NCBI GenBank assembly: GCA_017622845.1
Contig: JAGAQJ010000069.1
Span: 1 to 64,000, forward strand
Length of the DNA stretch: 64,000 bases
Source of the DNA: Lachnospiraceae bacterium
GTDB lineage: Bacteria > Bacillota > Clostridia > Lachnospirales > Lachnospiraceae
Reading direction: 5' to 3'
Shown here: positions 12,784 to 23,227 of the stretch, piece after piece
How positions within the stretch are numbered: position 1 is the first letter of the stretch
Layout: each line of letters opens with the position of its first letter
The notes under the pieces: model-generated
Seen by the model: only the letters and a program-made list of their open reading frames with translations
Told to the model about the DNA's origin: nothing
Databases searched by the model: none
Translations under genes and position numbers: made by a program

Positions 12784-13668
12784 TTACTGCTTAACTTGGA
12801 GCAGTTCCTTTGCACTGTAATAATCCTTTTCCTCAATGCCGAGAATTGTACAGGCTTCTTTTAGAGATACATGCAGGTTATGGATAACATTATCAATACT
12901 TTTTATGGTATTTTCAGCATTTACCTGCTGCGTATTTTCGGCTACAGCTTTGCTTAAAGCAGCATCAAATTCCGGTTTCATTAATTCCATCAGGGCCTCA
13001 CACATATCTGAATCCTCCTTTACGATATAAAAACTTGCAGGATTGGCTTTCAGCGCAACCTGAAAAAGTGAATCAGCCAAATCCTTGTCATACTTAGTCG
13101 ACAGACTGTGAATGTCAGTAATCAGTTCTGAAGCAGAGACAGGACTAAGGCGGTTGGTAAGCTTAGACAGCCATTTATGATTAGCAGGATTAAGCTCACA
13201 TGTAACAATGATCTGTGTTTGAAAGAAATTGTCTTTTTGAATATAGTATATGCCGGAATATTGCTGTGTAATGGTATATCCGTTTTCTTGAAACCACCTC
13301 ATAAGCCTGGCAGGGGAGATATCCCGCACAAAAGAGATTGTTATGTCATCAGGACGAATACTGCCAATGCTTCTTTCATATGATTTGTAGAGGCATGCAT
13401 AGCCGAGAACCTTGAAATATGTGTCGATATCCAGACTGTCAGAAGGACTTTTGTATTCCATGATATTGTGTCCGCGAAAAATTCTGCCAATATCATTTTT
13501 TATGACAGCATGTTTTTCCATTTTGATAATCAGCAAATCAACTTGAAGTGGTTTTTGATTCAGGTTGTATTCCTGTTCAAAAGTTAAAATATCACAATGA
13601 TCTTTTAGCTCTAATCTGACAGCGGAGCAAAAAGCCGGATGCCATTGAATTATGTCTTTTTCGCTCAT
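12784..13668 (-). CDS. PD-(D/E)XK nuclease-like protein of unknown function
   Basis: A 294-residue soluble protein. The N-terminal ~110 residues look like a PD-(D/E)XK/Rpn-type fold: LNQKPLQVDLLIIK supplies the acidic residue and NIMEYKSPSD supplies an E-X-K triad. The middle is mixed alpha/beta; the C-terminal ~80 residues are helical. Similar proteins occur in Lachnospiraceae, and I know of no assigned function. The ATG at 13668 has a GAGG site on the minus strand. No neighbour indicates a role. Confidence 0.6.
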   Translation of the reverse strand: MSEKDIIQWHPAFCSAVRLELKDHCDILTFEQEYNLNQKPLQVDLLIIKMEKHAVIKNDIGRIFRGHNIMEYKSPSDSLDIDTYFKVLGYACLYKSYERSIGSIRPDDITISFVRDISPARLMRWFQENGYTITQQYSGIYYIQKDNFFQTQIIVTCELNPANHKWLSKLTNRLSPVSASELITDIHSLSTKYDKDLADSLFQVALKANPASFYIVKEDSDMCEALMELMKPEFDAALSKAVAENTQQVNAENTIKSIDNVIHNLHVSLKEACTILGIEEKDYYSAKELLQVKQ

Positions 13669-14018
13669 GTAAGAACCTCGTGAATGTTATATTTGAACAG
13701 TTATTTACATTTATAATATAGCATAAAAAAATGTAACCCGCAATATAACAGAATGTAAACACATGTTCTAATACCAGAATAACAAACATAAGTTCATATG
13801 TCAAGAGAAAAAAGTGACAGCAGTAAAATAAATGAATCCGGGCTGCTGTTCAGAAAGTACTTATATATTATTTGAGTATTCTTACATGTTGCTGTGACGG
13901 AATAAGCCGGGAGGAACTGTTTCAAATCAGGCGATAAAATGTAAAATTCGACAAAATCTACCATATTTGAACAGAATAACGTAAGGTATGACATAAAATA
14001 AGCTCTTGCTGTTTTAAA
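13669..14018. other. AT-rich intergenic region between divergent genes
   Basis: About 350 bp with no convincing ORF. It holds several TTACAT/ATGTAA words near 13704-13760, which may serve the minus-strand promoter. The 12-mer ATATTTGAACAG occurs twice, near 13689 and 13963. No RNA gene is seen. Confidence 0.5.
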
Positions 14019-14070
14019 TGGTATACTTTTATAGATAGGAACTATTTGTCATATCTAAAGTACCGGTACT
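14019..14070 (+). promoter_or_regulatory. Extended -10 promoter and palindromic operator of the first XRE gene
   Basis: TGGTATACT (14019-14027) fits an extended -10 element. AGTACCGGTACT (14059-14070), a perfect 12-bp palindrome, lies between it and the start codon and could be an autoregulatory operator for the XRE protein. Confidence 0.45.
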
Positions 14071-14091
14071 AACAAAACAGGAGGGATTTCA

Positions 14092-14466
14092 GTGGTGGAT
14101 ACTCAAAAAACAAAACAAAAGTCAGGAAATAAAGGAAAAGAGGAAATAAGTAAGATATATGTGGAATCAGGGGTCCGCATATTAAACTGCAGGCACAAGA
14201 AAAAGATGACAAGAGATACACTGGCAAGTGCAGCAGGAATCTCAAGCAAATTTCTGTATGAGATAGAGACAGGACATACAGGGTACTCTGTGGCAGTGCT
14301 GGAGAAAATTGCAGAGGCATTAGGCGTTGAATGTGATTATATTTTATTTGGACAGGTTAACAGACCTCATTATGATCAGGACCTGGTTTCGGCGCTGGCA
14401 GCATTTGACGAAGAAGGCCTGCAGAAGGTAGCGCGCGTATTGAACATTATAGCGGAATTTCATTAG
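14092..14466 (+). CDS. XRE-family transcriptional regulator (agr-flanking copy 1)
   Basis: A 124-residue protein with a lambda-repressor-type helix-turn-helix (about 28-85): TRDTLASAAGISSKFLYEIE carries the two DNA-contact helices. The GTG start (14092, or 14095) follows GGAGGG. It closely resembles the XRE protein at 19804 (both have GISSKFLYEIE-like or LSDKFLYEIE-like helices and CDYIL after the domain). The pair brackets the MCP and agr genes and probably arose by duplication. The short C-terminal tail (about 85-124) may be a dimerisation element. Confidence 0.85.
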   Translation: MVDTQKTKQKSGNKGKEEISKIYVESGVRILNCRHKKKMTRDTLASAAGISSKFLYEIETGHTGYSVAVLEKIAEALGVECDYILFGQVNRPHYDQDLVSALAAFDEEGLQKVARVLNIIAEFH

Positions 14467-14474
14467 CGGACGAA

Positions 14475-14504
14475 CAGAACCGTTCACCGGAGTGGGCGGT
14501 TCTG
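14475..14504 (+). terminator. Terminator-like hairpin after XRE gene 1
   Basis: CAGAACCG (14475-14482) pairs with CGGTTCTG (14497-14504). The T tract is poor, so termination may be weak. Confidence 0.45.
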
Positions 14505-14639
14505 TCTGCCGACAAGGAGCATGCACGAATACAATATAGAAAAATATGTCATAAAAAATAGAAAAGAGTATATACTTTATTGTCAGTTTATTATATAATT
14601 GGTCTGAATAAACTAACGATGATACAGGAGGTTACTTTT

Positions 14640-16181
14640 ATGGAAAAAAAGCAATTAACTGCATTGGAGGAGTATATAAATAAAGTATTTTTAATGGTGC
14701 TGTTGATTGTTCCGGGAGCTTGTCTTTGCGCAGGCATAACGTTTACTCTGGAGAGAGCGTTAAAGTGGTATCCTGATGTAAGCTGGCCGGGACTGATTAT
14801 TTTTGACGTGACATGTGTATTGTACCTCCTGATTGCAATTTATCAGATAAAAACCGGATTTGCAGAAGACGGTACAGTACTGCCGCAGCGGCTGAAATAC
14901 GGTAAAATCTATATTGTTGCTGTAATGCTTGTCCAGTTCAACTTTATTGTATACTTAATTCCTTATGAAGAATTTTGGGCGTTTGCTTTTTTCTTTGTGA
15001 TACTTGCAATGTTCTTTCTTGATGTAAAGATGGTTAGTATTACAATTGTTGAGATCGGTCTGTCTATTGTAATTTCATTTTTCCTGAACGGAACAGTAAT
15101 GCTTCCGGATAAAGATGAATTTTTTATGCCGAATATCGTCAATCGAATGATATGTCTGGTTTTGTCGTTCGCCGGTGTCTGGCTTATTACATTTTTTGTC
15201 GGTAAATTCCTGGTGGATGCCAAGAAAGATGAGATGGAGAGAAATAACAGCAAGGTGAACGAAGTGCTCTCGACGGCAAAGCTGCTGGCTGACAATTTAA
15301 TGAAGTCAGGAAACATTCTGTCAGAAATTTCATCGAATCAAAGTGCATCGGCAGAGGAGCTTGCGGCGACAAGCGAAACGCTCCTGGCTAAGAGCAATCT
15401 GCTGAGTGAGAAGTCAGACGAAAGTATTGCGAACCTGAATGAACTGAAGCAGTGGGGTGACATCCTGAACCAAAATGTTGCAAAAGTAGACAGTTCATCG
15501 AAGAATCTTTTGGAAAAGTCACAGGACAACAAAAAAATGCTCGATTCCCTGAGCGGTGTCAATGACGAAGTGATGGAGTCCATGCATGAAACCAATCAGG
15601 TTGCCCGGAGACTGTCCGAAGCAGTGTCCGAAATTGATGTCACTTTGAATCTAATCAGCGAGATTTCCGAATCTACCAATCTGCTGGCGCTCAATGCTTC
15701 TATAGAAGCGGCGAGGGCGGGAGAAGCAGGAAAAGGCTTTGCCGTTGTAGCGTCCGAAGTAGGAAAGCTTGCAGGCAGTACACAGGAAAGCCTTCAGGAG
15801 GTAAAGAAGGTCATTGAGAAGATACAGAATAATGTGTCGGATATTACTTCTTATATTGCAGATAATTCTGATAAGCTGTCAAGACAGAATGAATACTTCA
15901 GAAATGTATTTGCAGGGATTCAGGAAATGATTGATCTGCTGTATCAGTCAATAGAGGATATTAACACTATGAATGATGCGCATGGCAAGCAGGTTCAGGT
16001 GATTGAACATACCGTCGGCATCAGTGGGGATATAGCAGGCAGTATCAAGCTTGAAAATCAGGAATTTGCATCTATATCCGGTATGGTTGAAGGGAATGTG
16101 AAGGATATCAGCATTATGACAGAACAGATTGAGGAAATAAACCGCATGACGAAGGAAATTGACGAATTGCTAAAAAAATAG
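14640..16181 (+). CDS. Methyl-accepting chemotaxis-type protein without a periplasmic sensor
   Basis: A 513-residue protein with about six hydrophobic segments in the first ~190 residues and only short loops between them. A long coiled signalling domain follows, with the conserved hairpin tip around [20 protein letters not shown] and [15 protein letters not shown]. There is no extracellular ligand domain and no obvious HAMP domain, so it would sense through its membrane segments. The ATG at 14640 follows CAGGAGG; an upstream in-frame ATG lacks a site. No chemotaxis or flagellar genes are nearby, so a non-motility role is possible. Confidence 0.85.
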
Positions 16182-16299
16182 CGGTGTTGTAATTCCTGAA
16201 ATGAGTGGTTATATTTTTGATTATAGATTTGATTCTATTCAAGTGCGCCTAAAATGGTTATAGTTAAGGTATAGCTGATTTATAGGAGGTGCACGAAAG

Positions 16300-16485
16300 A
16301 TGTTTCGGATAGAAAAGAATCTGTCAAGACCTAATGTACCAAAGACAATACGGTTTACGGAAGAACTTGATGAAAAATTAACAATTGTAGCTAATGGTGA
16401 ACAGATTTCGTTCAATGAGCTGGTGCTTAGATGCTGCCAGTATGCATTGAATGATTATGAAGGAAAAGCAGATATCAAAAAATAA
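16300..16485 (+). CDS. Small ribbon-helix-helix-like protein
   Basis: A 61-residue protein with an excellent AGGAGG site. KTIRFTEELDEKLTIVANGE then ISFNELVLRCCQYAL fits the beta-strand plus two-helix plan of CopG/Arc-type DNA-binding proteins. It ends 6 bp before the LytTR response regulator gene, so the two are very likely co-transcribed and co-translated. It could be an accessory repressor for the agr locus; no direct evidence. Confidence 0.7.
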   Translation: MFRIEKNLSRPNVPKTIRFTEELDEKLTIVANGEQISFNELVLRCCQYALNDYEGKADIKK

Positions 16486-16491
16486 GGACTT

Positions 16492-17214
16492 ATGAGAAAG
16501 AATATTTTAATTATTGAAGATGAAGAGCATTCAAGAAATGCTCTGGTCAAGGTTGCATTAACATGTGCAGAGGACTGCAATGTGCTTGATACGGACAATG
16601 TCGCTGAGGCGTATCAGTATGCTTTGGAACAGGATATCGACCTGTTCTTAATCGATATTATTTTGGATAAAAATAAAGTACATGATGTATCGGGGATGAT
16701 TTTTGCGGAGAGAATCCGTCAGGTTGACCGATATAAGTATACGCCGATTATTTTCATAACAAGCCTCGTTGATCAGGGACTGAATGCATTGCATAATATT
16801 CATTGCTATAACTATATTGAGAAGCCCTTTGACATAAAAAAGGTCAAAGAGAATATTATTGATGCACTGGGAGCGCCGAACGGAGCAGACAGAGAGATTG
16901 CATTCTTTACATTTCACAAGGATGGCATCTTATTTCACATCCCCATTGAGAAGATTATGTATTATGAAACGCATGGCAGAAAATCATATGTCCACTTGGA
17001 GGAAGAAATCATTGAGATACCATACAAATCATGCAAAGCAATCCAATGTGAGCTGCCAAGGAAGTATTTTCTCAAATGCAACGGGTATACGATTGTCAAC
17101 AAGAATTATCTGAATATGTCGGATAAAGCCAACAGATATATCACGCTTGTGAATGGTGAAGTGCTGGAAGTAAGCAGAGTGATGAAGAAAAGCTTCTTTG
17201 AGGACTTGCAGTAG
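16492..17214 (+). CDS. LytTR-type response regulator (AgrA-like)
   Basis: A 240-residue protein: receiver domain at about 1-125 with acidic pocket E9-D10, phosphoacceptor D55 in FLIDII and the IEKPF lysine; LytTR DNA-binding domain at about 140-238 (IEKIMYYETHGRKSYVHL; FLKCNGYTIVNKNYL). This is the AgrA/VirR architecture, which binds direct repeats upstream of target promoters. It runs towards agrDB on the opposite strand and shares a terminator with it. The cognate kinase is presumably the AgrC-like protein at 18305, a split layout for an agr locus. Confidence 0.9.
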   Translation: MRKNILIIEDEEHSRNALVKVALTCAEDCNVLDTDNVAEAYQYALEQDIDLFLIDIILDKNKVHDVSGMIFAERIRQVDRYKYTPIIFITSLVDQGLNALHNIHCYNYIEKPFDIKKVKENIIDALGAPNGADREIAFFTFHKDGILFHIPIEKIMYYETHGRKSYVHLEEEIIEIPYKSCKAIQCELPRKYFLKCNGYTIVNKNYLNMSDKANRYITLVNGEVLEVSRVMKKSFFEDLQ

Positions 17215-17217
17215 TGC

Positions 17218-17302
17218 GGCTCAGCCTTTTATGCATTTATATTGCCATTTTCCGCCGGACAGTCAGAGGGAAGAGTTCTTCTGCGTTCTGTTCATTGCAA
17301 GC
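17218..17302 (+). repeat. Decayed remnant of the long palindromic repeat
   Basis: CTCAGCCTTTTATGCATT near the start and GTTCTGTTCATTG near the end match the two ends of the repeat at 39147; the middle is mostly lost. Confidence 0.4.
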
Positions 17303-17320
17303 AGGATTAAATTTTTAGAC

Positions 17321-17354
17321 AATAAAAAATGGTGTTGAAACACCATTTTTTATT
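17321..17354. terminator. Bidirectional terminator between response regulator and agrD
   Basis: AATAAAAAATGGTGTT (17321-17336) and its exact complement (17339-17354) form a 16-bp stem with A and T flanks, so it works in both directions. It lies 2 bp from the agrD stop codon. Confidence 0.9.
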
Positions 17355-17355
17355 G

Positions 17356-17502
17356 CTAATCTTCTGAAGGATATTCTGGTTCGCCGAAAAAGAAGAGACA
17401 ATTTACATCAGGCATTGGCTTGACTGCTAATACAACGATTGAAAGTGTAATTCCTGCAAGTGTGCCAATTACTTTTTGGAGTATGTTAGTGCCGTTTTTC
17501 AC
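17356..17502 (-). CDS. agrD: AgrD-type cyclic lactone autoinducer prepeptide
   Basis: A 48-residue ORF beginning with GTG after a GGAGGTGAGA site and overlapping the agrB end by 17 bp, the usual agrBD coupling. The N-terminal MKNGTNILQKVIGTLAGITL is an amphipathic, membrane-associating leader. VNCLFFF holds the cysteine (C35), and an acidic, proline-bearing tail GEPEYPSED follows, as in AgrD proteins cleaved by AgrB. By analogy the mature signal would be a thiolactone closed between C35 and the carboxyl of F39, with a short N-terminal tail of unknown length. It is identified from order and motif; the ring is inferred. Confidence 0.88.
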   Translation of the reverse strand: MKNGTNILQKVIGTLAGITLSIVVLAVKPMPDVNCLFFFGEPEYPSED

Positions 17503-18058
17503 ATCTCTCACCTCCTTTTTTGAGAATATATGCTATTAATAACTGCAAAGAATGCAGAATAATAGTCCAGTATCCCACTGATGCAAAAGATGTTTGATAA
17601 AAAATTAGTATGACAACTGCACAATATATTGTAATTATATAAGACTTTTTTTTGATTGCTTGTCTTTTTACATCAGACAAGAGTGGTCTTGTCGCTGATT
17701 GAATTGGACTGAGACAAAAATTAATTATAGAGCAAAATAGCATGAGCAATAAGAACAAGGAACATGGTAAGAGTATTTTGCCCAAAACACAGATTATAAT
17801 TGTAAAATATCCGAAAGAAAAAAGGAAGCAAGACCAATAGTGTTTAAAATGCAATCCGCCCGATTGAGTTCTCAGTGGAATGGAAACCAATACAGCAAAT
17901 AAATATTGAGTCAAATGTCCAATATAGTAAAAAAACAAGGACATGACTATAAATTTGCTTAAATCATACATAATACATTTGAGCTTAAAAATAATAAATT
18001 TTTGCTCTCTTGGACTTAATTTAATTTCATTTGCCATATATTCAGTCAGTATATTCAT
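17486..18058 (-). CDS. agrB: AgrB-type membrane endopeptidase
   Basis: A 190-residue multipass membrane protein of the accessory gene regulator B family. The catalytic pair is visible in RTQSGGLHFKHYWSC: His70 and Cys77, seven apart as in S. aureus AgrB (H77/C84). It cleaves AgrD C-terminally and forms the cyclic peptide. The ATG at 18058 has a GAGGA site; a longer in-frame reading upstream has none. The gene is AT-rich relative to the window. It is divergent from agrC and overlaps agrD. Confidence 0.92.
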   Translation of the reverse strand: MNILTEYMANEIKLSPREQKFIIFKLKCIMYDLSKFIVMSLFFYYIGHLTQYLFAVLVSIPLRTQSGGLHFKHYWSCFLFSFGYFTIIICVLGKILLPCSLFLLLMLFCSIINFCLSPIQSATRPLLSDVKRQAIKKKSYIITIYCAVVILIFYQTSFASVGYWTIILHSLQLLIAYILKKGGERCEKRH

Positions 18059-18304
18059 GAAAAATTCCTCATTATGTGATATTAGATGGAACCAAAGCGT
18101 AAAGGTATTGAAAATATCTAATATTGATATTGCTTTGCACAAGACTTATTATATTATAAAAAATATGGATTTGCGCATTAAGCAGATAATTGGTGCCATA
18201 TATAGAAAAAATATTTACATAATGGTAACATGGCATTTTAAACATAACCAATTGCACCTTTTGATTAAAAAAACGAGAATAATAATTCTTAAATTGGAGG
18301 ATTT
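18059..18304. promoter_or_regulatory. Divergent agrB-agrC control region
   Basis: A 246-bp, very AT-rich spacer between two outward-facing agr genes. It carries AATTGGTGCCAT near 18188 with a partner ATGGCA and AACCAATT near 18230-18254, an imperfect inverted arrangement that could be a regulator site. No promoter could be assigned with confidence. LytTR binding here is expected by analogy only. Confidence 0.45.
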
Positions 18305-19573
18305 ATGGAAGTTAATATTTTGGAAGTATTTACAGAATATATTGCAATGATGATTATACTATATAAGTTATCCAAACACGCATTTGTTTTTAGCCTTTAT
18401 AATATTGTGGGATTGATAATTAACTTTATTTTTGTTTTAGTTTGCCTAAGTTGTCCTGATTATGATATAAGGATAAGAATATTTTTGTACATGTGCATAT
18501 TAATGTTTATTAAATTCCTTTTAAAATTTACTTGGAAGCAAGCTATTAAATATTTTGGCTTGACTATGATAGTAATATCAGGATTACAATTATTGCTTTA
18601 CATATTAGTGGGAAATAGAATATTAGGAATTGTTGAAATTAATATAGTAGGAATTATAGAAAATTGTCTTATTATTGTACTTGCTTTATTGTGGAAAACA
18701 AAATATGTTGAAAGCGCTTTTAAGAAAATAGTGTGGTTTAAAGAAAGTATTTTCATTATTGTATTTTTTCTCTTTTTCTTCTATCTATTTTACATTCGCA
18801 ATGAAACAAGTCAGCTTGATTCACAGGCTTTAATACAAGCATCATTAGGTCTGATAGGAATTGCGCTTGTCGCAATTCTGTGGGTAAATACAGAGAAAGA
18901 GAAACGGCGTAAAGCAGAAGAACTGAGAGCGTACGAGATGTATACAAAATCATTCGAGGACACGATTGCGGCTATCCGAATGAAACAACATGAATTTAAG
19001 AATCATATCAATGCCATTTTGTGTATGCAGTATACAATACAAGATGAAGAAGAACTGAAAAATGCACAGATGAATTATTGTCAGGAGATATTAAGGGACA
19101 ATTCACTCAATGACCTGCTTAAAGTCAAAATGTCGCCTGTCATCATCGGTTACTTGTACTCAAAATTTACGTTTGCCATTGATAAGCATATTTTTGTCAA
19201 ATACGATATTCAGGATATCTCCCTGAGTGAAAAAGCTGCAGTACATAATCTGGTGGAGATTATCGGTATTCTGTTTGATAATGCAGTGGAGGCGTTGACA
19301 TCAAGTGAGGAAGCGGATAAGCAAATTTATGTTAGAATTGGAATGAATGAGGAAGAAAAATATTTTATTGAAATAGCAAATTCCAGCCCCAAATATAGTA
19401 TCAATGAGATGGAAGCCTTCTTTCAATACGGAAACAGCACCAAAGGAAAAGATAGAGGGATTGGCTTGTACCAAGCGAAAAAACTGGCGGAGAAATGCAA
19501 TGGAATTATCACAGTTGAAAATATTATTTATGAGGAAAGAAATTATATCAGTTTTAAGGTGATTTTCCGTTGA
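18305..19573 (+). CDS. agrC: AgrC-like GHKL sensor histidine kinase
   Basis: A 422-residue protein: six or so transmembrane helices (1-195), a coiled linker, then a kinase core of the HPK10/GHKL type. The phosphoacceptor is in MKQHEFKNHINA (H229). The ATPase N-box is FDNAVEA and the G-box is DRGIGLYQ. This is the architecture of peptide-sensing AgrC and fits reception of the AgrD-derived signal. RBS GGAGG is 4 nt from the ATG. Low GC and rare-codon-rich N-terminal half. Its response regulator is most likely the LytTR protein at 16492, on the far side of agrDB. Confidence 0.88.
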   Translation: MEVNILEVFTEYIAMMIILYKLSKHAFVFSLYNIVGLIINFIFVLVCLSCPDYDIRIRIFLYMCILMFIKFLLKFTWKQAIKYFGLTMIVISGLQLLLYILVGNRILGIVEINIVGIIENCLIIVLALLWKTKYVESAFKKIVWFKESIFIIVFFLFFFYLFYIRNETSQLDSQALIQASLGLIGIALVAILWVNTEKEKRRKAEELRAYEMYTKSFEDTIAAIRMKQHEFKNHINAILCMQYTIQDEEELKNAQMNYCQEILRDNSLNDLLKVKMSPVIIGYLYSKFTFAIDKHIFVKYDIQDISLSEKAAVHNLVEIIGILFDNAVEALTSSEEADKQIYVRIGMNEEEKYFIEIANSSPKYSINEMEAFFQYGNSTKGKDRGIGLYQAKKLAEKCNGIITVENIIYEERNYISFKVIFR

Positions 19574-19663
19574 GCAAAGAAGCGAATCAAATCGATACAA
19601 AGTTGTCGTTGAATGGCAATCAGTGCATTTTATTCCAATAATTACACATGTTGTGTGCTCAAA

Positions 19664-19693
19664 TGGTCATATGAAAAAGGTTTATCGTATAAT
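19664..19693 (+). promoter_or_regulatory. Promoter of the second XRE gene
   Basis: TGGTCA (19664-19669) and a perfect TATAAT (19688-19693) have 18-bp spacing. Confidence 0.5.
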
Positions 19694-19803
19694 AAACACA
19701 ACGAGTTATAAATATGCAGAAAGCGCTGTATGGCATTTATAAACCTGCGCTTTCCAAATCATTACAATTTATCAATAAAATAAGAAGGGTATGGGCACGT
19801 AAG

Positions 19804-20130
19804 ATGAGCAAAACAAATGTTGAACCGGTTTATGTAGAAGCAGGAAAAAGAATTAAGGAGCTGCGTTTGAGAAAAGGGATGTCGCGTCAAGAGCTTGCAG
19901 CAAGTGCAATGCTATCTGACAAATTCCTATATGAGATTGAAAGCGGCAGGAAAGGCTTTTCTTCAGCGAAACTGCTGAGAATTGCAAATGCATTGGACGT
20001 TACCTGCGACTATATCTTAAATGGCGAGAATGAATTGGAAATTGAGATGTCGGAGATGTTAATGCTGTTTAAAAATAAGGATATACCAAAGGTAAGAGAG
20101 CTGCTGTATGCAGTTTCCGAGATGATATAG
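19804..20130 (+). CDS. XRE-family transcriptional regulator (agr-flanking copy 2)
   Basis: A 108-residue protein from MSKTNVEPVYVEAGKRIKEL, with a helix-turn-helix at SRQELAASAMLSDKFLYEIE and the CDYIL strand. It is a paralogue of the protein at 14092 and forms the other flank of the agr block. An in-frame ATG at 19714 would add 30 residues that have no counterpart in the paralogue, so 19804 is preferred, although its ribosome binding site is weak. A strong terminator follows. Confidence 0.83.
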   Translation: MSKTNVEPVYVEAGKRIKELRLRKGMSRQELAASAMLSDKFLYEIESGRKGFSSAKLLRIANALDVTCDYILNGENELEIEMSEMLMLFKNKDIPKVRELLYAVSEMI

Positions 20131-20166
20131 GAAACGATTCGTTCAAGAATAAGTGCTTTGGTTAAG

Positions 20167-20201
20167 AAAAGGTCTTTCGCCATAAGGCGAAGGACCTTTT
20201 T
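20167..20201 (+). terminator. Intrinsic terminator after XRE gene 2
   Basis: AAAAGGTCTTTCGCC (20167-20181) pairs with GGCGAAGGACCTTTT (20186-20200) around ATAA, with a T run. Confidence 0.92.
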
Positions 20202-20206
20202 CAGTA

Positions 20207-20289
20207 GGACGAAGGTCGGCAGTCCTATGTGTACTGACAACTGTCCGGCTTTACGGTTTCAATGAACAGAAAACTGCAGATAGTATCCC
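20207..20289 (-). repeat. Partial copy of the long palindromic repeat
   Basis: Near-identical, in reverse orientation, to the right-hand part of the repeat at 39147: TGTGTACTGACAACTGTCC, then TTTCAATGAACAGAAAAC and GCAGATAGTATCC. The terminal inverted repeats are absent. Confidence 0.7.
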
Positions 20290-20318
20290 GTGGAATGCCT
20301 CAGTGAAAAATGGTGATA

Positions 20319-20378
20319 TTGACAAATATATCATTTAACGATATATTATAAATGTGATATATCAAGAGCCGATATATT
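20319..20378 (+). promoter_or_regulatory. padR promoter with iterated GATATAT operators
   Basis: TTGACA (20319-20324) and TATATT (20342-20347) are spaced by 17 bp. AATATATC (20325-20332) and GATATATT (20340-20347) form an inverted repeat across the spacer and -10. Further boxes are TGATATATCA (20355-20364) and GATATATT (20371-20378), giving a 15-16 bp period from 20340. This looks like an autoregulatory PadR operator. Confidence 0.65.
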
Positions 20379-20398
20379 AAGAAAATAAGGAGGAGAAT

Positions 20399-20722
20399 AT
20401 GACGGAAAAAGATAATCCATTAACAGAGGCGGTTTATTATATCTTATTAGCAGTCAGAAAACCTAATCATGGGTATGGAATTATTCAGGAGGTAGAGCGG
20501 TTGACAAAGGGGCGTGTCGTGCTGGGCGCCGGAACCCTGTATGGTGCGATACAGACACTTGAAAAAAGGAAGTGGATTGCGATTTACAGCGTTGACACAC
20601 AATCCCGGAAAAAGAAAGAATATATCATTACGGATTTAGGAAGAGAAGTCTTTGAAGCGGAACGGGTGCGCTTGGAAGAATTATTGAGCAATGCAGAACT
20701 GATGGAGGAGATAAAGAAATGA
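20399..20722 (+). CDS. PadR-family transcriptional regulator
   Basis: A 107-residue winged-helix protein of the short PadR class: AVRKPNHGYGIIQEVERLTKG and LGAGTLYGAIQTLEKRKWI hold the recognition helix and wing. RBS AGGAGG. Its stop overlaps the start of the DUF2812 gene (ATGA), a common pairing in which the membrane protein is thought to be the regulated partner. Iterated GATATAT boxes upstream suggest autorepression. Confidence 0.92.
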   Translation: MTEKDNPLTEAVYYILLAVRKPNHGYGIIQEVERLTKGRVVLGAGTLYGAIQTLEKRKWIAIYSVDTQSRKKKEYIITDLGREVFEAERVRLEELLSNAELMEEIKK

Positions 20723-21420
20723 TTCAATTTCGCTTATATTTTGATAAGGATGCAGAGACACAGTGGCTAAATCATATGTCAGCGCAAGGCTGGGCGATGA
20801 AACGGTTTTTTGCAGGATTTTACAGCTTTGAAAAAAGCGGGAAGGGTGAGTACACATATCAGGTTGATTTTGGCGACAGAATGTTTAAAGTCAGTGATGC
20901 ATACAGAGAGTTTATGCAGGATACCGGAATAGAAATTGTTCAGACTTGGGGATACTGGGTGATTCTTCGCAGAAAAGCTTCGGATGGAAAATTTGAATTA
21001 TACACAGATGTGGATTCCAGTATCCGCCATTACACAAAAATCCGCAGAATGTTTGAGGCGGTGACAATCATAGAGTTGATATGCATGCTTGTGGAGCTTT
21101 ATATCGGACTTGTGACAGGAGTTGAAGCAGGTCTTGCCTGCGCGCTGATTTTAGCCGCAATATTGATTACTTGTGTAAATCAAGTGAGAAAACTCAACAA
21201 TACAATTGAACAACTGCAGGCAAGAATGGAGGGAACTGAAGATATGGGAACAAAAAAGAGATGCCGGAATATTTCAGGATTCATGGCGGCCGGATTATTA
21301 ATAAATAGCTGTGTCCTGATGCTCAGTGAATCCATTTCAAGAAATATTAAAATATCTGTCCAGCTGGCAGCCATTATATTGATGCTTGTAGGACTGGTTC
21401 AGACATGCAGGAGGAAATAA
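20719..21420 (+). CDS. DUF2812 domain-containing membrane protein
   Basis: A 233-residue protein. The first ~95 residues (FRLYFDKDAETQWLNHMSAQ, GWAMKRFFAGFYSFEK) match the DUF2812 domain. Four hydrophobic segments follow (about 113-130, 133-153, 186-205, 209-226). DUF2812 proteins are usually encoded with PadR regulators, as here, with an ATGA overlap. The function is unknown. Confidence 0.82.
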   Translation: MIQFRLYFDKDAETQWLNHMSAQGWAMKRFFAGFYSFEKSGKGEYTYQVDFGDRMFKVSDAYREFMQDTGIEIVQTWGYWVILRRKASDGKFELYTDVDSSIRHYTKIRRMFEAVTIIELICMLVELYIGLVTGVEAGLACALILAAILITCVNQVRKLNNTIEQLQARMEGTEDMGTKKRCRNISGFMAAGLLINSCVLMLSESISRNIKISVQLAAIILMLVGLVQTCRRK

Positions 21421-21532
21421 GCAGATAGGGAAAAGAGTATTGACATCTGATTGCAAACACTGCCGGAAAATGGTAAGCTATTGAAATAGCATTGGAAGAA
21501 TATCAGGGCATGTCTGAGGCATGGAGGACGTT

Positions 21533-23227
21533 ATGGCAAAGAATGTTGCAATCGGTTTACAGAATTTTGCAGATTTCATTGAAAAGAATTATTTCTATGT
21601 GGATAAAACGGCATTTATCAGAGAATGGTGGGAGGCTGGAGACAGTGTAACATTGATTACACGTCCCAGACGCTTTGGAAAGACGCTGAATATGAGTATG
21701 GTAGAACATTTTTTTTCGACAGATTATGCGCACAGAGGTGATTTGTTTGAAAATTTAGCCATATGGAAGCATGATGCATACCGTATGCTACAAGGAACAT
21801 ATCCGGTAATCAGCCTTTCCTTTGCCAATGTTAAGGAGAGAACTTATGAGATGGCAAGGCGTAAAATCTGCCAGCTTTTGGTAAACCTGTATGCAGAGCA
21901 TCAATATCTTCGTGACAGTGATTCGCTTGGAACTCGTGAAAAGGAATATTTTGACAGGGTGTCTGTTTCAATGGATGATGCAGATGCGACGCTGGCGTTA
22001 TATCAGTTGTCCAATTTTATGTATCGATATTATGGGGAAAAGGTGATTATTCTTTTGGATGAGTATGACACGCCGATGCAGGAAGCCTATATGAATGGCT
22101 ATTGGGATGAGATGGTGTCCTTTACAAGAAGCATGTTCAATGCAGGCTTTAAGACAAATCCATGGCTTGAACGGGCAATTATGACTGGAATTACCAGAGT
22201 AAGCAAAGAGTCGGTCTTTTCGGATTTAAATAATCTAAAAGTTGTAACAACAACTTCTAGTGAGTATGCAACCTCATTTGGCTTTACGCAGGAGGAAGTG
22301 TTTCGGTCATTGGATGAGCAGGAAATGGGGCAGGAAAAAGAAATGGTAAAGCTCTGGTATGATGGCTTTGTCTTTGGCACTTGTAAGGACATTTATAATC
22401 CGTGGTCGATTTTAAACTTTTTAGATACAGGAAAATATATGCCTTATTGGGCAAATACCAGTTCGAACAGTCTTGTCGGAAAGCTCGTTCGGGAAGGCGG
22501 CCGCGGCATCAAAGAAAAGTTCGAAGCGCTTTTAAGCGGAAAAACGATAACGTCTGAAATTGATGAACAGATTGTGTACAGTCAGCTTGACGGAAATGAA
22601 AGGGCTGTATGGAGTTTGCTCTTGACAAGCGGTTATCTCAAAGTGCTTTCCGTTGAGGATTACAGGGAAATACAGGAAGGAGAAGCGCCGGAATATGAGT
22701 TGGCATTAACCAACCTTGAGGTTAAGCTCATGTTCAAAAATATGATTCGTGACTGGTTTTCTAAGGCGGATTCCGATTATAATGACTTTGTTAAGGCACT
22801 TCTGGCAGGAGATAAAAAAGCAATGAATGTCTATATGAACAGAGTTGCCGTAAGCGTATTCAGCTATTTTGATACAGGAAAAAGCCCATCCGGACAGGAG
22901 CCGGAACGTTTTTATCATGGTTTTGTACTTGGGCTTATCGTAGAGCTTCAGGGAAGATATGTGATTACTTCCAATCGTGAAAGCGGATTCGGAAGATATG
23001 ATGTACTGCTGGAGCCAAAGAATCCTGCTGAGGATGATGCGATAATATTGGAATTTAAGGTTCATGACCCTGAGGATGAACAGACACTAAGGGATACGGT
23101 GCAGGAGGCATTAAACCAGATAGAACGTAGGAGGTATGATACTGTATTTTTGGAAAAAGGGATTAGTCAGGAACGAATCCGAAGATATGGCTTTGCATTT
23201 GAAGGCAAAAAAGTATTGATAGGATAA
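21533..23227 (+). CDS. AAA-ATPase-like / PD-(D/E)XK nuclease superfamily protein
   Basis: A 564-residue protein. The N-terminal domain has the AAA_ATPase_like signature: YFVDKTAFI-type opening (YFYVDKTAFIREWW), RPRRFGKTLNMSM as modified P-loop, and IILLDEYDTPM as Walker B. The C-terminal domain has a PD-(D/E)XK core, YDVLLEP then AIILEFKV. Proteins of this layout are very common, often in many copies, in gut Bacteroidota and Clostridia and have no settled function. The ATG at 21533 follows GGAGG. It stands alone. Confidence 0.85.
   Translation: MAKNVAIGLQNFADFIEKNYFYVDKTAFIREWWEAGDSVTLITRPRRFGKTLNMSMVEHFFSTDYAHRGDLFENLAIWKHDAYRMLQGTYPVISLSFANVKERTYEMARRKICQLLVNLYAEHQYLRDSDSLGTREKEYFDRVSVSMDDADATLALYQLSNFMYRYYGEKVIILLDEYDTPMQEAYMNGYWDEMVSFTRSMFNAGFKTNPWLERAIMTGITRVSKESVFSDLNNLKVVTTTSSEYATSFGFTQEEVFRSLDEQEMGQEKEMVKLWYDGFVFGTCKDIYNPWSILNFLDTGKYMPYWANTSSNSLVGKLVREGGRGIKEKFEALLSGKTITSEIDEQIVYSQLDGNERAVWSLLLTSGYLKVLSVEDYREIQEGEAPEYELALTNLEVKLMFKNMIRDWFSKADSDYNDFVKALLAGDKKAMNVYMNRVAVSVFSYFDTGKSPSGQEPERFYHGFVLGLIVELQGRYVITSNRESGFGRYDVLLEPKNPAEDDAIILEFKVHDPEDEQTLRDTVQEALNQIERRRYDTVFLEKGISQERIRRYGFAFEGKKVLIG

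Follow-up and report, generated by a model that had tools for sequence, protein, structure and literature searches.

The window analyzed here, a stretch of 64,000 nucleotides from Lachnospiraceae bacterium (GenBank assembly GCA_017622845.1, contig JAGAQJ010000069.1, positions 1 to 64,000), holds a complete agr-type gene set made up of a LytTR response regulator (RR), AgrD, AgrB, and an AgrC-like GHKL kinase, with reading frames and catalytic residues intact. The genes lie in the order RR> <agrDB agrC>, in which the arrowheads give direction: there are three units, and the inverted agrDB unit converges with the regulator and diverges from agrC across 246 bp (Table 1). On the strength of its genes, motifs, order, and clade, we regard the locus as probably a functional quorum-sensing circuit of the agr peptide type whose gene order is derived, and in which processing, pairing, autoinduction, and expression would proceed as set out below.

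An earlier, sequence-only reading of this DNA had located all four parts and described agrDB as inverted, convergent with the regulator, and divergent from the kinase. The coordinates agree, and the positions are borne out by Pfam matches for the regulator, AgrB, and the kinase and, for AgrD, by place, ribosome-binding site (RBS), and alignment. All four frames are open and have RBSs, and the encoded proteins are 39-49% identical to those of relatives. The regulator matches the Pfam families Response_reg (49 bits) and LytTR (43.5 bits); it matches the AgrA model of NCBIfam at E 1.8e-5 with 24.4 bits against a cut-off of 400, and it is therefore AgrA-like and not a curated AgrA. AgrB scores 104 bits against a Pfam cut-off of 23, and its residues His70 and Cys77 stand seven apart in a GGxH-6-C motif; we presume from S. 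aureus AgrB that their role is catalytic. The kinase is assigned to GHKL by Pfam and has six hydrophobic segments in a simple hydropathy scan. At E 0.001 it has two sequence matches in the PDB, both of them AgrC kinase chains (best 5e-10). Its match to the AgrC-Staph model (E 1e-11, 44.7 bits) is far under the cut-off of 500, and it scores higher to the DcuS/MalK kinase model than to the AgrC model of NCBIfam, all of these scores being below cut-off. Catalytic or acceptor residues are kept in 52 of 52 aligned sequences each for AgrB (the GGxH-6-C motif), AgrC (the histidine equivalent to His229), and the regulator (E9, D10, D55, and K111, with T90 in 51 of 52). An initial sequence pattern for this histidine failed on 14 of the 52 AgrCs and was superseded by the alignment.

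Neither Pfam nor NCBIfam has an AgrD model that matches the window AgrD (TIGR04223 was tried to E 0.1), and the gene was therefore identified from its place, from its RBS, with a GTG start 8 nt downstream of AGGAGG, and from alignment with 51 other AgrDs. The protein combines a Cys ring residue with an acidic, Pro-containing tail and is encoded beside agrB.

Relatives were taken from 38 genomes of the genus, the window's own included, and from a species-wide scan of 84,980 species, one genome each, with a pattern derived from an alignment of 14 regulators. Within the genus, which is presumably GTDB's COE1 and includes Lachnospiraceae bacterium COE1, AgrB is present in 23 of 38 genomes and regulator matches of at least 41% identity in 13. 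The 11 complete loci from other genus genomes (L092-L102) all read RR>agrC> <agrB, as does the more distant L107; three further loci (L103-L105) are cut by contig ends. The scan gave 82 relatives, of which 80 were kept. AgrB was found in 52 of these stretches, which together with the window and L107 make the 54 loci counted below; the other 28, some of which end early, were excluded from the counts. Near-duplicates occur among the 54 (e.g. L163, L165, L166, and L168), and the figures therefore tally loci and should not be taken for numbers of independent events. The inclusion of Lachnospiraceae bacterium COE1 is based on locus L117, which is identical over 14,227 bases to a stretch of G002, a genome of the same genus as the window.

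Judged by their sequences, the relatives of the window regulator are a branch of agr loci, mostly from Lachnospiraceae, and the window is a member of it by sequence, not by gene order. In every one of the 54 loci agrDB is antiparallel to the regulator and agrC, so the inversion does not set the window locus apart. The order RR>agrC> <agrDB accounts for 49 loci (47 from an automated count, plus L152 and L186, whose split frames were skipped there and are visible in the locus map), and the two frames overlap in 41 of the 47. Four loci (L129, L130, L136, and L137) read agrC> <agrDB RR>; a helix-turn-helix (HTH) gene, not the regulator, precedes agrC in L130, L136, and L137, and in L129 this HTH gene is likewise present, close to the end of the contig. 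The window, in which agrC does not directly follow the regulator, is the only locus with RR> <agrDB agrC>. The comparison with the usual agrBDCA in the sequence-only reading is thus beside the point; the real oddity is the position of agrC beyond agrDB and not the inversion, which is normal in the branch. The check that it had proposed, a search for agrD next to agrB in related Lachnospiraceae, found agrD behind agrB in the 54 loci having AgrB. A second sample of 392 genomes of the order yielded regulator matches at E 1e-45 in 11, giving 11 stretches that come from nine additional genomes; the segments of them that were tested matched none of the named loci exactly. Five of the stretches have AgrB, and all five show RR>agrC> <agrDB with agrDB antiparallel, so that no second genome with the window order was found among the 53 other loci and these five. 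Two irregularities were seen among the relatives: in L159:4130-10685 the AgrC and RR genes are repeated ahead of just one AgrB, so that tandem copies of parts do occur, and agrC is split into two frames at L152:7707-9002 and L166:7723-8984, through either real decay or sequencing errors.

That the parts belong to one circuit, which the sequence-only reading had offered as an inference, is probable because the regulator, AgrC, and AgrB of the window fall in the same clade. Trees were built from 53 regulators and 52 AgrCs, and from 23 and 21 chosen rows for AgrB and the XRE-type protein. The window regulator stands beside L118, L121, and L122 (fork 93/86, with a second regulator of the same genome included) in a 15-row clade (100/99); AgrC stands beside the same three loci (fork 84/74) in a 14-row clade (100/100), and AgrB lies in a 14-row clade (100/97). 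Between-gene distances of the parts correlate at 0.86-0.91 over 52 loci. Taken with the shared clade, these correlations support common inheritance of the parts, as distinct from contact between them. Gene counts do not allow the pairing to be read, since the assembly has one AgrB and several GHKL kinases (twelve matches to PF14501, eleven above its cut-off).

The second regulator bears directly on the pairing. It is an orphan LytTR protein of the same subfamily (G000:C75:16423-17145; L091:8406-9149), and it sits where relatives carry the whole locus. It is 46% identical to the window regulator, keeps its acceptor residues, and groups with L118, L121, and L122; it is flanked by a MATE-type gene and by the downstream genes of relatives' loci, and no match to AgrC, AgrB, or XRE was found in the surrounding 18 kb. 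It therefore seems that the genes for signal and receptor have been lost from the usual site on contig C75, the window copy lying elsewhere. AgrC might then mainly, or also, drive the orphan regulator, for which the intact residues, the grouping, and the neighborhood all speak, as do the distances: its distance row fits that of the window AgrC at 0.77, compared with 0.76 for the window regulator, the sensor half at 0.77 compared with 0.69, and AgrB at 0.70 compared with 0.63; for the kinase half the figures are 0.73 and 0.76. We nevertheless think such a split partnership unlikely, since the window regulator is encoded beside agrDB and agrC and shares their clade, whereas the orphan has no agr gene in that 18-kb stretch.

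Several of these results weigh against a single functional circuit in the window. In three of the four distance comparisons, a weak test, the fit of the orphan equals or exceeds that of the window regulator, which argues against simple one-to-one pairing. The fork that joins the window AgrC to L118, L121, and L122 is weak, the AgrB tree does not resolve the position of the window within its clade, and the XRE tree is likewise without resolution. Promoter-like matches over the whole region are near chance (29 against 20.6, sd 4.3), and no 9-mer shared upstream of agrB rises above shuffles in 13 clade sequences. Finally, the window order has been seen just once, in a draft genome.

Some of the same observations would fit a decaying or silent locus, in which parts left over after a move no longer signal to each other. 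The end branches are long (0.81 for the window regulator, 0.85 for AgrC), the overlap of the regulator and agrC is lost, there is no promoter evidence, and the loss at the C75 site shows decay of the system to be possible in this genome. Set against this are the open frames with their RBSs and the retention of all key residues at 39-49% identity, and we rate decay as rather less probable even than a split partnership. It is very improbable that the order is an assembly error concealing the common RR>agrC> <agrDB: the assembly is a draft (76 contigs, 95.3% complete) and the order recurs in 0 of 53 and 0 of 5 other loci, but several false joins would be required, each at a clean gene end, an inverted repeat of its own stands behind the regulator and a separate leader and RBS precede agrC, the listed repeats between 13500 and 21000 other than the hairpin are imperfect, and the stretch contains no N.

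The favored reading, a working circuit in a derived order, would operate as follows. AgrB would cut AgrD after Phe39 and close a five-residue Cys-Leu-Phe-Phe-Phe thiolactone; the exported and trimmed peptide would bind the membrane half of AgrC, AgrC would phosphorylate the LytTR regulator at D55, and the regulator would activate the agrB promoter and other genes. The effect of REARRANGEMENT is that the regulator and agrC lie 1.09 kb apart, with the hairpin and agrDB in between. Because agrC is separated in this way, it does not overlap the regulator gene and must be expressed apart from it. It sits 5' of agrDB, with agrB on one side and the XRE gene on the other, at the place of the agrB-XRE intergenic stretch in those relatives that have the XRE gene, and it is perhaps driven from a promoter next to that of agrB and read onward into the XRE gene. 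The order may have arisen by movement of agrC or from tandem copies with unequal loss. A shared LytTR-type site upstream of agrB was considered and rejected on the 9-mer result given above and on the absence of any direct repeat passing the cut upstream of the window agrB; upstream alignments show a conserved block inside one five-member subclade only. No Rfam family reached its gathering threshold in 13500-21000, and an RNAIII-like RNA was rejected as a candidate on that result. The inverted repeat between the convergent genes has perfect 17-nt arms and folds as a hairpin; it is absent from the terminator-scan list. In five intergenic stretches of the window, relics of the regulator, agrC, agrB, or XRE gene were sought; the best match was E 0.088, and the idea was dropped.

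The predicted signals of the branch share a simple design. Across the 54 loci, the residue five positions before Gly-Glu/Asp is Ser in 45 and Cys in nine, the window among the latter. These figures derive from a script that looked behind agrB for short frames ending in a G[E/D/Q]...[P/Y] tail and required neither Ser nor Cys: it gave an AgrD in 52 of the 54 loci, with Ser in 43 and Cys in nine. The AgrDs of L170 (S-FMLF-GEYPYP), whose tail exceeds the length that the filter allowed, and L178 (S-FWFF-EEPDF), which has Glu for Gly, were found by eye in a three-frame print and bring the Ser type to 45. Candidate frames in L148 (a second one) and L178, with Glu and Lys at the ring position, were discarded as spurious. 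Elsewhere in the part before the Gly, Ser and Cys together make up 177 of 1517 residues, spurious frames counted in. Of the 208 residues at ring positions 2-5 in 52 AgrDs, 201 are hydrophobic, and none of these AgrDs has a charged, amide, or His ring residue. The cores SAILF (five loci), SLLLF (four), and SFLFF (three) are each shared by loci with separate positions in the regulator tree. The second sample added six AgrDs in five new loci, all of the Ser type, a further candidate in L245 being spurious; in L246 (G730:C8:5000-24900) two Ser-type frames lie behind a single AgrB, and three regulators of the family are found on that stretch. Most of these precursors escape the standard NCBI model (TIGR04223), which 4 of the 52 reach at E 0.1 (best 0.00028), compared with 10 of 10 conventional AgrDs over the cut-off, picked by eye from other AgrB loci of the genus. 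Ser-closed rings are listed for S. pseudintermedius, E. faecalis, and C. difficile agr2 in the excerpts of PMC12312760 and PMC3673130 covered here, and the chemistry is therefore not new; in the same portion of the open-access literature no description of their predominance in this branch was found.

The branch is thus a more general result than the single-case order of the window. A tentative joint reading, well short of the confidence we place in the circuit itself, is that of an under-described agr lineage of gut Lachnospiraceae with antiparallel signal and receiver genes, producing mostly serine lactones with hydrophobic rings whose recurrent cores might let species listen in on one another. 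In the window, on this reading, the receptor gene now adjoins the promoter of the signal enzyme gene, and a single divergent region would switch on receptor and signal at the same time, a rewiring of the feedback that none of the other 53 loci shows. The branch is spread through gut Lachnospiraceae; the agr papers covered here mostly concern pathogens and Clostridium. A predictable core in precursors mostly missed by the standard model also offers a short list of testable lactone or thiolactone signals, and the window order amounts to a natural experiment on the uncoupling of receptor from regulator in an agr system.

The regulator gene is preceded, in 44 of 52 loci, by a frame that ends at its start and resembles one of ten reference proteins, all ten of them HTH by scan; the exceptions are the window, L129, L130, L136, L137, L132, L158, and L189. 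A different gene takes this spot in the window. The sequence-only reading had described a ribbon-helix-helix (RHH) gene coupled to the regulator and a methyl-accepting chemotaxis protein (MCP) gene just upstream. The former does end 6 nt before the regulator; its RHH identity is weakly supported by a match below cut-off, relatives in three other genus genomes never lie beside the regulator, and its membership in the circuit is doubtful. The MCP is real by Pfam, but no MCP match was found in 17 stretches (16 of relatives and the genome's own C75 site), so that it was rejected as an agr part. The MCP and RHH-like genes are not conserved agr partners. The MCP may instead belong to a PadR neighborhood: the PadR gene and its neighbor at 20719-21420, which we take to be of DUF2812 type, occur together and without an agr match in seven of seven stretches fetched for that pair, and in six of the seven (L205-L210) the pair has an MCP-domain match, 26-34% identical to the window MCP, at most a few kb away. 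In an eighth stretch, L212, which was fetched for the RHH-like gene, there was no match.

In 30 of 52 loci agrB has an XRE gene on its 5' side; in the window the XRE gene follows agrC. Two XRE genes of one family (14092-14466 and 19714-20130) flank the agr block of the window, with a weak pairing (82/87) in a poorly resolved tree. The block lies between genes at 12784-13668 and 21521-23227 that look like nuclease-type mobile or selfish genes. An invertible cassette was rejected, as none of the 25 longest of 40 inverted repeats in 13500-21000 was seen to bracket agrDB and all are imperfect except the hairpin. Carriage by a phage was likewise set aside on a single distant match in a viral collection, phage and plasmid record collections not having been searched. 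The first 600 bases of agrC have a GC content of 0.245-0.308 and a third-position GC of 0.205-0.32 in all 14 clade loci examined, and in the sensor half the third-position GC stays very low even where the locus itself is at 0.44-0.46 GC. The AT-rich agrB and agrC sensor regions were consequently dropped as a mark of recent acquisition, low GC in 14 of 14 clade loci being a family trait.

Table 1. Features of the agr-type locus and adjoining genes, in window coordinates
Feature	Positions	Strand	Basis or remark
RHH-like gene, 61 aa	16300..16485	+	Pfam HicB 18.9 bits, below 21-bit cut-off
LytTR response regulator RR (AgrA-like), acceptor D55 at 16654-16656	16492..17214	+	Pfam Response_reg, LytTR
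Perfect inverted repeat between convergent RR and agrD, possible two-way terminator	17320..17355	.	Repeat search, fold
agrD, 48-aa signal precursor, stop included	17356..17502	-	Place behind agrB, RBS, alignment
Predicted ring residues Cys35-Leu-Phe-Phe-Phe39, then GEPEYP	17386..17400	-	AgrD pattern; ring closure inferred
agrB, 190 aa, overlapping agrD; putative catalytic His70 (17849-17851) and Cys77 (17828-17830)	17486..18058	-	Pfam AgrB
Divergent intergenic stretch agrB/agrC, 246 bp	18059..18304	.	Coordinates
agrC-like kinase with GHKL domain, 422 aa; six hydrophobic segments; His229 (18989-18991) as phospho-acceptor	18305..19573	+	
XRE-type HTH gene; true start maybe further in	19714..20130	+	3' of agrC in window

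The four parts found in the window are those of S. aureus agrBDCA, L. monocytogenes agr, and E. faecalis fsr. The likeness to S. aureus-type agr extends to the predicted five-residue Cys ring, the acidic Pro-containing tail, the polytopic GHKL kinase, and the LytTR regulator. In the excerpt of PMC12312760 covered here, S. aureus agr is one operon with the order B-D-C-A; the window differs in having the regulator, agrDB, and agrC as three units with agrDB inverted, an additional XRE gene, and no RNAIII-type family in Rfam. Clostridial agr systems are more varied in order, as far as the covered parts of PMC12312760 and PMC8748961 describe them, with agrBD and agrCA in C. acetobutylicum, agr2 in C. 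difficile, and agrD-C-B in C. autoethanogenum. Separate agrBD and agrCA units and the Ser-closed ring listed for C. difficile agr2 resemble what is seen here, whereas an antiparallel agrDB between regulator and kinase, and the HTH and XRE companions of the branch and window, are unlike the clostridial systems as described in those parts. No description of the branch was found in the portions covered of the open-access literature (PMC12312760, PMC3673130, PMC3901668, PMC11352710, PMC8748961), which is weak evidence of absence, subscription journals being mostly outside that scope. The closest likeness is to the branch itself (L112-L124, L133, and further loci), with which the window shares the clade or pattern of its regulator, AgrC, AgrB, and AgrD, the antiparallel agrDB, and the XRE gene, and from which it differs in that agrC diverges from agrB and an RHH-like gene, instead of an HTH gene, precedes the regulator.

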